Program-made: the position numbers and the translations under genes | Notes under the pieces: model-generated | Told to the model about the DNA's origin: nothing | The model's database searches: none | What the model saw: only the letters and a program-made list of their open reading frames with translations | Assembly: GCA_013298775.1 (NCBI GenBank) | Contig: JAAFIV010000022.1 | Location: forward strand, 1 to 64,000 | Length of the DNA stretch: 64,000 bases | DNA from: Ignavibacteria bacterium | GTDB taxonomy: Bacteria; Bacteroidota; Ignavibacteria; Kapaibacteriales; UBA4661 | Reading direction: 5' to 3' | Part shown: positions 17,050 to 33,623 of the stretch, in pieces | Layout of the letters: every line of letters begins with the position of its first letter | Position numbering within the stretch: position 1 is the stretch's first letter

Positions 17050-17343
17050 AAATAACATTATGAGCGCAACGTATTACGCGCCAAGTAACTTTGCTGACCT
17101 TGAAAAAAAAAAACGCTTGAAGTGCTGATTGTATAACGCTTGTAGGGAAATAGTGTTGAAAGTGTGAAAATGAAAAAACAGGCTTCAAAGCCAGATGAAA
17201 TCCTGCTTTCAAGCCCTTTAATGAAGAAATCTATAAATAATCGAACAGTCCTGCTTTCAAGAGTTTCAACTCCTGCAAAAGCTCACAACAACTGCATTGA
17301 GAAGTCGTTGGCTTCCCTCGTTCTGCGGCAGTTTTCCCTATCT
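17050..17343. other. Intergenic region, no gene seen
   Basis: Contains a run of A at 17103-17112 and a GCTTCAAAGCC/CTGCTTTCAAGCCC near-repeat at about 17180-17218. Similar CAGGCTTCAAGCC occurs at 33572-33586. No coding potential or RNA gene was recognised. Confidence 0.5.
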
Positions 17344-17559
17344 CTACCCTCCACGCTCTCCGTTGTTTTCTGCATCACCTGAGTTTTTTTCTGTTTTGGT
17401 GTGATTTTTTCTGCCTTCGAGTTCATCAAGAAGGTGTTGTAAAACGCTGGGTTGAGAAACATCCACGAGGTAGTTGAAAAGTAAGGTGGAAAAAGCATGC
17501 AATCTGTACTGCACTTCAATCTCATTTTCCAATCTAATATTTCTTCTGGCGCGAAACAA
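17344..17559 (-). CDS. Small hypothetical protein downstream of the ATPase-PIN pair
   Basis: 71 residues with a TTG start at 17557-17559, preceded by a strong AAGGAGGG. The reading frame begins 24 bases after the PIN-like gene stop, on the same strand, so it looks like the third gene of the module. The first half is hydrophobic-amphipathic (LFNYLVDVSQPSVLQHLLDE) and the tail is Lys/Glu/Asn-rich. No family recognised. The good ribosome site and operon position are the only support; the frame could be chance. Confidence 0.45.
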   Translation of the reverse strand: MFRARRNIRLENEIEVQYRLHAFSTLLFNYLVDVSQPSVLQHLLDELEGRKNHTKTEKNSGDAENNGERGG

Positions 17560-17583
17560 CGCTTCCCTCCTTGTGTTCCAGCC

Positions 17584-18048
17584 TTATGACGAATAGGAAG
17601 CGAGAAAATCCTCCAGCAAAACTACGCGAATAAAGCCATTATCCAGTGTTTGTGCGACAAGACGGTCATCGGTCGTGATAATGATGCGGTCGCTGCTGTG
17701 CATTGCGGCTTCAAAAAGGTAGGTATCGCTGTTGTAAGGTGGAATGAGTGCTCGCAAAACGCTGTCAGGAAGCGGTTCTATATCTGTATTCTGCAGTAGT
17801 CGGCAACGTTTGGAGTCACGTAAAACGAGGCTAATAAATTGCTTGAAAAGGTCTTTGCTATCAAGGTCGTATTGAAAGGCTTTGTCGAATCCATATACCT
17901 TGCGAATAAAGGCACTGTCTTGCTTTACAACCAAAACATCGCCGCGCTTGTAAAAAGTTTGGAAGAATTGCACTGCTTGTTTGCGGCTTTCGGGCGGCGT
18001 ACCAGGGCGCAAGTACTCAGGAAACCATTCGTTGATGACCAGTTCCAT
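17584..18048 (-). CDS. PIN-like hypothetical protein paired with an ATPase
   Basis: 154 residues from ATG 18046-18048 (MELVINEW); a TTG four codons earlier is possible. The layout matches PIN-like proteins: a hydrophobic strand with acidic residue at the N-terminus (ELVINEW), a central segment ending ALIPPYNSDTYLFEAAMHS, and a late strand plus Asp pair (RIIITTDDRLV). These would be candidates for the metal-binding acids of a nuclease. It lies 33 bases after the ATPase stop and is surely co-transcribed with it. The family assignment is from pattern only. Confidence 0.55.
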   Translation of the reverse strand: MELVINEWFPEYLRPGTPPESRKQAVQFFQTFYKRGDVLVVKQDSAFIRKVYGFDKAFQYDLDSKDLFKQFISLVLRDSKRCRLLQNTDIEPLPDSVLRALIPPYNSDTYLFEAAMHSSDRIIITTDDRLVAQTLDNGFIRVVLLEDFLASYSS

Positions 18049-18081
18049 AGCTGGGAGCAAAGGTAAAAAAGAAAAAATGTG

Positions 18082-19305
18082 TTAGGCAAACTCTTCGTCA
18101 ATTCCCAAGAAACCCTGTATTTGCCCAAGTTCGTCGGCATAAAAACTTTTCAATCCACCTTCAATTTGCCCTTGATTGTTAATCGCTTGTTCCTCAAAAA
18201 CCGTTGCTTTTCCCTCCTTTTTCACGTAGTAAATCTGCACATCTTCAGGCGCAATACTGCCCGCACGAACCGCCTCCAAAACCGATACAACCAAGTGTTC
18301 GCTATGCGTGGAGAGCAAAAACTGCTTTTCCTCTTGCGCTGTTATGTCTATCATCGTCTGCACAAGGCGTGTTATCATGCTTGGATGCAGATGCACTTCT
18401 GGCTCATCCACGCAGATAAATCGGGCTTCAGGGCGCAGCGATTTTGCAAGCAAGGTGATAATTTGATTCGTTCCAAGCCCTTCATTCACGAGGTCAGTAA
18501 CGAAGCCTGTTTCACGGTCGCGCGTTTGCAAATGAAAGAGTGCCGTACCAGAAATATGGCGCACTTGAAACACTTTATTGGTGATTTTCTCGAAATAATG
18601 GGCCACCATGCCTTCCAAGTTGCGGTCGTTTGCCAGAAGCGTCGCCAATTCATCTTCGGTGATGATATTGGACTGAAGCGGCACGGGCGAAAACAGAGGT
18701 TTGGTGAAGGTGCGGCGGAGGGGAATGATGTCGGTTGTGCGGAGTATTTCTGAGGGCAAATTGAGCCGTACTTGCATTCTTTTTACCGCGAGTTCTAGCT
18801 CAATAGATTGCTCGCTCAAAGGGGAAACTTCAGCAGTACCGACAATTCCGTTCCATGAAATCAATATATTTTCGCCCAAATGAGATTCTAGCTCAGTTTT
18901 TTCGTACTGCTGCATTGAATAAGGTAGTCCTACCCTTATAGACCTTACATCATTGTATGGGGAATCCAAATAAAATAAATCGCGGAAGAAAAAGGTAGCC
19001 TCTTGGGTCTGTAAAGAAACTCCGTAGGAAATTCTTGAGTCTGTAAAAAACATTAACGCCATATTTTTGTCCTCACGTTTCATAAAAATAACTTCCTTAA
19101 ATCCACCTAAATTGATAAAAGGCAGATTAAAACAGCTATCCAGCGTTTGGCTCGGGTTCATCACAATATTTTTCAAAACCATAAGCGCGTACAGAACGCT
19201 GGTTTTGCCAGAGTTATTTGCCCCCGTTAAAATGGTGATTTTGCCAAGTTTTAAATCTGCATTTTCAATACTACGAAAGCCCTGAATATTCAAACTGGAG
19301 AGCAT
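18082..19305 (-). CDS. AAA/OLD-like ATPase (SMC-type fold)
   Basis: 407 residues from ATG 19303-19305 (MLSSLNIQGFRSIENADLKL); an upstream start at 19398 adds a hydrophobic stretch without homology. Walker A is GANNSGKTS at residues 28-36. The C-terminal half has an ABC-like signature (LVNEGLGTNQI), Walker B in ARFICVDEPEVHLHP and the switch His in LLSTHSEHLV. No TOPRIM nuclease domain follows, unlike OLD proteins, and the middle is mixed strands. It is followed by a PIN-like gene. ATPase plus separate nuclease is a common architecture of phage-defence modules, but this pairing is not one I can name. Confidence 0.85.
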   Translation of the reverse strand: MLSSLNIQGFRSIENADLKLGKITILTGANNSGKTSVLYALMVLKNIVMNPSQTLDSCFNLPFINLGGFKEVIFMKREDKNMALMFFTDSRISYGVSLQTQEATFFFRDLFYLDSPYNDVRSIRVGLPYSMQQYEKTELESHLGENILISWNGIVGTAEVSPLSEQSIELELAVKRMQVRLNLPSEILRTTDIIPLRRTFTKPLFSPVPLQSNIITEDELATLLANDRNLEGMVAHYFEKITNKVFQVRHISGTALFHLQTRDRETGFVTDLVNEGLGTNQIITLLAKSLRPEARFICVDEPEVHLHPSMITRLVQTMIDITAQEEKQFLLSTHSEHLVVSVLEAVRAGSIAPEDVQIYYVKKEGKATVFEEQAINNQGQIEGGLKSFYADELGQIQGFLGIDEEFA

Positions 19306-33443: not shown

Positions 33444-33623
33444 AAAAATCGCTTGTTCAAGCAATAGAGCAATGTACAAGATTTCACTGACCTTCAGAAT
33501 CAAAACGCCTGAACACGAGATTATATAATACTTCCAGAAGATTCCGCCTCAAAGTGCAAAAATCAAAAAACAGGCTTCAAGCCGTGATGTGTTCTTGCCT
33601 TTAGGTACTTCAAAGAGAAATTT

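Follow-up and report, generated by a model that had tools for sequence, protein, structure and literature searches.

In PARIS, the AriA hexamer holds the effector AriB until a phage anti-restriction protein frees it, and the freed AriB cuts tRNA-Lys (PMC11455837). According to the available part of PMC9122126, removing either gene of PARIS causes no toxicity, so the two partners need not be toxin and antitoxin. AAA hub antitoxins that neutralise RNase-like toxins are described in the available text of PMC10440598. HEC-03, a PADLOC candidate system, combines a PIN protein (HEC-03A) with a DUF3696 ATPase (HEC-03B); one survey mentions it, and a text search of the PADLOC paper (PMC8565338) did not find it. 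Here we report a different pairing of an ATPase with a PIN-like protein, for which we found no description in the open PubMed Central literature and which is probably an undescribed two-gene defence module.

The pair lies in a 64,000-nucleotide stretch of DNA from an Ignavibacteria bacterium (contig JAAFIV010000022.1), which was analysed whole and is called the window below. A first-pass annotation had grouped three ORFs here as a candidate two- or three-gene module, and it had their coordinates and strands right:

18082-19305, minus strand: DUF3696-type, ABC/OLD-like ATPase of 407 aa (P0001), kept in 7/7 pair loci
17584-18048, minus strand: predicted PIN-fold protein of 154 aa (P0002), with motifs NEW, DxYL and TTD
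17344-17559, minus strand: third ORF, spurious and not a component, as judged by codon score, a folC match and absence from other loci

The PIN gene starts 33 nt past the ATPase stop codon. Both genes have codon usage like that of the window genes, at 0.18 bits per codon; 0.15% of the 660 off-frame segments score higher.

P0001 carries a Walker A motif (GANNSGKTS), a Walker B motif (FICVDEPE) and a THSEH motif. A Pfam scan matched AAA_15, AAA_21 and a C-terminal DUF3696, all above cut-offs, and matched no TOPRIM or other nuclease family, which bears out the earlier description, an ATPase of SMC/OLD type that has no nuclease domain; the similarity to SMC/RecF is weak. Among PADLOC profiles the best was NsnB of Menshen (139 bits, over nearly the full length), followed by HEC-03B (111 bits, 1.6e-32), with AriA, AbiLi, Old and GajA among the lower matches. 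The predicted structure of the ATPase was too poor for use (pLDDT 49).

For the partner, the evidence is structural. P0002 had no meaningful match in Pfam, PADLOC or NCBIfam and was recognised by no PHROGs model, and when a two-sequence PIN alignment was set against seven partner PINs by HMM-HMM comparison, no usable match came out (probability 1.9). Searches of PDB sequences with P0002 and with a six-PIN profile returned no significant PIN match, so the PIN assignment rests on the model. AlphaFold2, given a two-sequence alignment, produced a model of moderate confidence (pLDDT 72.6, pTM 0.67). When this model was compared with the PDB by Foldseek, the first six rows were PIN-type (PAE2754, SMG6) at E values of 3.6e-3 to 1.5e-2, none of them reaching 1e-3, and a BFVD search found nothing at E 0.001, its top row being named a PIN-domain protein. 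A second structural aligner (VIA) placed VapC-type toxins, archaeal PIN proteins, HARP/PRORP RNase P and SMG6 in its top rows, with a top Z of 9.6, rmsd of 3.9-4.2 and 132-136 residues aligned, and nearly all of its upper rows were PIN proteins. The PIN-like call, which was to be checked by structure prediction, is upheld by these matches to VapC, HARP and SMG6 PIN domains, and the model supports placing P0002 in the PIN domain superfamily.

The third ORF scored 0.005 bits per codon, a value below 10% of 660 off-frame segments and above 5% of 132 real-gene segments, and an alternative frame at 17283-17525 scored worse still. Its strong ribosome site, AAGGAGGG, had been noted in the first-pass annotation; the full AAGGAGG occurs upstream of 0/28 checked window genes and any loose match upstream of 9/28, with none at the ATPase and PIN genes, so that the site is a poor clue. 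An own-genome search traced the middle of the ORF (about 17415-17498) to this genome's folC, of whose 5' end it is a fragment (match of 45 nt, 89%). The match is in frame, AFSTLLFNYLVDVSQPSVLQHLLDEL in the third ORF standing against AFPTHLSNTLVD...ISQPNILQRLLDEL in folC, and a wider DNA alignment of the two scored 100, compared with a maximum of 76 in 200 shuffles. The product of the matched gene, 467 aa long, is of Mur-ligase type (Mur_ligase_M, Mur_ligase_C), and we take it to be folylpolyglutamate synthase, folC. A search for the third ORF in the other pair loci found no significant counterpart. We conclude that it is a scrap of the folC gene, and that it resembles coding sequence since a part of it was formerly coding. 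Of the module first proposed, the two-gene unit holds, with ATPase and PIN genes together in seven loci, but the third gene, with its non-coding score, folC fragment and absence elsewhere, does not. On the same three grounds, roles for this ORF as antitoxin, adaptor or effector are ruled out. Behind the module there is also a dispersed intergenic repeat (17096-17228), with similar stretches at three other sites of the genome and shorter ones at three more, including 33551-33580 of the window.

We asked where else the pair occurs. A PIN-only scan of genome contigs yielded one relative among 64 candidate stretches, in an uncultured Bacteroidetes MAG (L008), where an ATPase 47% identical to P0001 ends 2 nt before the PIN gene (43%) and a different gene follows. 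A profile built from the two PINs and run against 391 genomes of the window's class matched 8 genomes at E <=0.01. Five of the 391 are clear cases of the pair, namely the own genome and four at 2.5e-7 or better, and in these four (L086-L089) an ATPase at 308-410 bits lies directly upstream (4/4); the other three matches were weak (1e-3 or worse). The five loci recovered with the PIN as sole query (L008 and L086-L089) therefore all have a same-clade ATPase directly upstream, and the two genes are neighbours in distantly related bacteria. The weak PIN matches L014 and, at E 6e-4 to 4e-3, L090-L092, which have no adjoining ATPase and are at about chance level over 390-odd genomes, were dropped. 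Working from the ATPase side, a six-ATPase profile run against viral-collection contigs gave 28 loci, of which L096 scored 414 bits and the next 63; L096, found by its ATPase alone, has a PIN gene directly downstream (83 bits).

The distribution is patchy. Within the window's genus the pair is present in 1/8 genomes and absent from 7/7 others, and in two near relatives that we inspected, different genes lie upstream of the amidohydrolase-like gene that they share with the window. Among phylum genomes a search with P0002 by itself matched 1/395, its own, and one with P0001 by itself 6/390, the own genome and five with distant C-terminal ATPase matches; we took the phylum to be Bacteroidota, since genome draws centred on that of L008 coincide with those for the window. 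P0002 had no relatives in searches of plasmids and phages; neither did the L088 ATPase among plasmids or the L086 ATPase among phages (1e-20), nor P0002, A1, A2 and A4 in searches of viral contigs.

A tree of 28 chosen ATPases, in which long ATPases were cut by locus ends, placed the seven pair ATPases in one clade (100/100 support, branch 1.77) and six HEC-03-type ATPases in another (99/96), with Nsn-like types also apart from the pair clade. The rows left out were partial, very long or weak, or were second copies (L003, L004, L007/L018, L023, L025, L028, L031, L038, L043, L044), and the partner labels (Nsn, VILDPS, other) were assigned by eye except for profile-scanned partners. Pairwise identities of the ATPases and of the PINs correlated at r 0.76, a value reached by 2/5040 relabellings; the ATPase and PIN genes co-diverge.

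ATPases with DUF3696 are more widespread, with 26 matches in 23/198 phylum genomes; a genome draw centred on G395 covered about the same genomes and was not counted as independent. Their downstream partners included a HEC-03A PIN (4/4 scanned), a PF01850 PIN (one), a PIN_3 match below cut-off (one, from the search with P0001), an NsnC-like protein (one weak match of two scanned) and proteins without assignment. Because the downstream genes vary, the DUF3696 ATPase resembles a hub whose effectors can be exchanged, by analogy with the AAA antitoxins in the available text of PMC10440598. Two of these partners (L021:417-1424 and L026:361-1434; 336-358 aa) have a PIN-like first strand, VILDPS or TIDASVLAI, and no Pfam or PADLOC match at E <=0.1. 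In prophage P2-EC5 (L093, AM157364.1, 243-2913), ORF555/ORF333 comprise a DUF3696-like ATPase and a different partner, in which a PD-(D/E)XK-like stretch was seen by eye; this is a further ATPase-effector pair, here from a phage record. In HEC-03-type loci an RNA ligase gene directly follows the PIN gene (L024:1704-2905, L027, L028, L030, L094:4146-6774, L095:4068-6686), and on plasmids of Aeromonas and Azotobacter this third gene bears the annotation 'RNA ligase family protein', giving an operon of ATPase, PIN nuclease and RNA ligase.

Gene neighbourhoods differed from locus to locus. In L096 the pair is preceded by HsdR C-terminal, HsdS and HsdM genes and a DUF5655 gene and is followed by a large serine recombinase; this clear defence setting was seen in 1/7 loci. 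The DUF5655 gene (L096:3659-4591), which separates the type I restriction genes from the pair, is possibly a further defence gene. Most neighbours in the window, L008, L124 and L127 read as housekeeping, and the other loci were mixed or housekeeping by eye. The neighbours in the window included a phosphate-ABC-ATPase-like and an amidohydrolase-like gene, and no mobile genes were recognised around the pair, the ORFs being judged by eye. A large protein gene follows the PIN gene in L088/L126, with weak AAA_16/NACHT matches that were all below cut-offs. Housekeeping co-occurrence alone, which the first-pass annotation had named as evidence against a defence module, describes the window and some relatives but not L096, so that the defence proposal finds its context in one relative and not at the window itself. 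The restriction neighbours of L096 would fit a second-line system, in this one case. With the pair constant while its flanks differ between loci, it has the look of a travelling two-gene cassette.

We next considered the residues of the PIN protein. An alignment of the seven PINs shows a common h-h-(D/N)-E-W, an (S/D)DxY(L/I) turn and T(T/C/M)D. A PIN site has catalytic acids that follow strand 1, precede the third-acid helix and follow strand 4, and by their place in the modelled fold we take D/N6 to be the first acid, D108 the third and D127 the fourth. Both D108 and D127 occur in 7/7 PINs, and E7 is retained in the window copy. The first acid place is D in 5/7 (DEW) and N6 in the window and L008 (NEW; codons AAC and AAT), and residue 107 is likewise D in 5/7 and S in the window and L008. 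Since N6 and S107 are common to two PINs that are just 43% identical, the substitutions are old and have been kept. With N6 where five others have D, catalysis by the window copy is uncertain, and on its sequence this PIN, with N6 and S107, may be inactive.

Taking these results together, we find it fairly likely, by analogy with PARIS, that the pair is a self-contained defence module of two genes in which an ATPase restrains a PIN RNase. The ATPase, of ABC/OLD type, which ends in DUF3696 and lacks a nuclease, would form an oligomer, sense a trigger and restrain the PIN protein; the trigger, most likely phage infection, would release or switch on the PIN ribonuclease, and the freed PIN would cut tRNA or mRNA so that growth stops, as in PARIS or in AAA-neutralised toxin-antitoxin pairs. 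PIN domains are classical toxins, and a chromosomal toxin-antitoxin pair, in which the ATPase neutralises a VapC-like PIN toxin for stability or stress rather than phage defence, would suit the housekeeping surroundings of the window locus. It would also have parallels in the available text of PMC10440598, where NetFlax pairs AAA hub antitoxins with RNase-like toxins and an A. guerrae pair gave no defence against BASEL phages. We regard this explanation as rather unlikely, however, because the ATPase gene comes first, there is no small DNA-binding antitoxin, and one locus (L096) lies inside a type I restriction island. The same locus, whose pair adjoins restriction genes and a recombinase, argues against a housekeeping pair for RNA processing or DNA repair, a RecF/SMC-like ATPase with a nuclease and unrelated to phage, as do the changing flanks and the scattered presence in the genus and class (1/8 genomes and 5 clear cases in 391). 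A housekeeping role would account for the single-copy chromosomal neighbourhood without recognised mobile genes and for the weak SMC/RecF similarity, and we consider it improbable.

The remaining alternative concerns the window copy itself, which could be a decaying relic that has lost PIN catalytic residues and has debris behind it. The replacement of Asp by N6 and S107 and the folC fragment and dispersed repeats directly downstream are what such decay might leave, but neither gene is broken, the codon usage of both is normal, and L008, at 43-47% identity, has the same N6/S107, which makes this an old and maintained state in which E7, D108 and D127 are kept; we hold a relic to be highly improbable. 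Returning to the defence reading, its most specific form is an undescribed immune module whose ATPase restrains a 'DEW' PIN ribonuclease and in which the window's branch swapped the first Asp for Asn (NEW) while keeping the Glu. This form is tentative, and we would place it a little below an even chance. If it is true and the NEW branch cuts RNA, the module would contain a PIN enzyme whose active site has been rearranged; if it is true and the NEW branch does not cut RNA, the module would have an effector that acts by binding. The pair is a small, testable two-gene cassette, and its natural D-to-N change offers a way of asking how ATPase-gated RNases work.

Finally, we compared the pair with known systems. 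The first-pass annotation could match it to none of Gabija, Septu and PARIS, and our Pfam and PADLOC profile comparison agrees. Gabija shares the OLD-type ATPase domain, but its TOPRIM on the ATPase is absent here, the partner is instead a predicted PIN fold, and no adjoining helicase gene was seen by eye; Septu shares the same domain, but P0002 has no HNH or PtuB match. PARIS is alike in having two genes, an ABC-type ATPase with a small effector, in the match of P0001 to the AriA profile and in the ring-and-release logic that we propose, whereas the present effector is modelled as a PIN fold and P0002 has no DUF4435, AriB or TOPRIM match. Menshen (NsnA, NsnB, NsnC) shares an ATPase profile, NsnB being matched by 6/6 scanned pair ATPases, but P0002 has no NsnC match and no DUF262 (NsnA) gene was recognised by eye beside the pair. 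The AAA-neutralised toxin pairs (AarT, AbiL; NetFlax node D29) likewise join an AAA ATPase to a translation-blocking RNase-like or TOPRIM toxin, but PIN is not among the partners named in the available text of PMC10440598. The closest layout is that of HEC-03, in which a PIN protein of some 155-180 aa comes straight after the ATPase and whose HEC-03B profile is matched by 6/6 scanned pair ATPases, with NsnB scoring higher. The partner differs, however, since HEC-03A matches neither P0002 (E <=1) nor any of six pair PINs (E <=0.5); the HEC-03 ATPases form a separate supported clade, and an RNA ligase gene follows the PIN gene in 6/7 HEC-03-type loci examined but not in the present pair. PADLOC labels the ATPase by distant relatives alone and misses the partner entirely. 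We suggest that the pair is new in combination and ordinary in its parts, and that through it the ATPase-plus-effector defence architecture would gain a distinct ATPase clade with an unmodelled family of PIN effectors.
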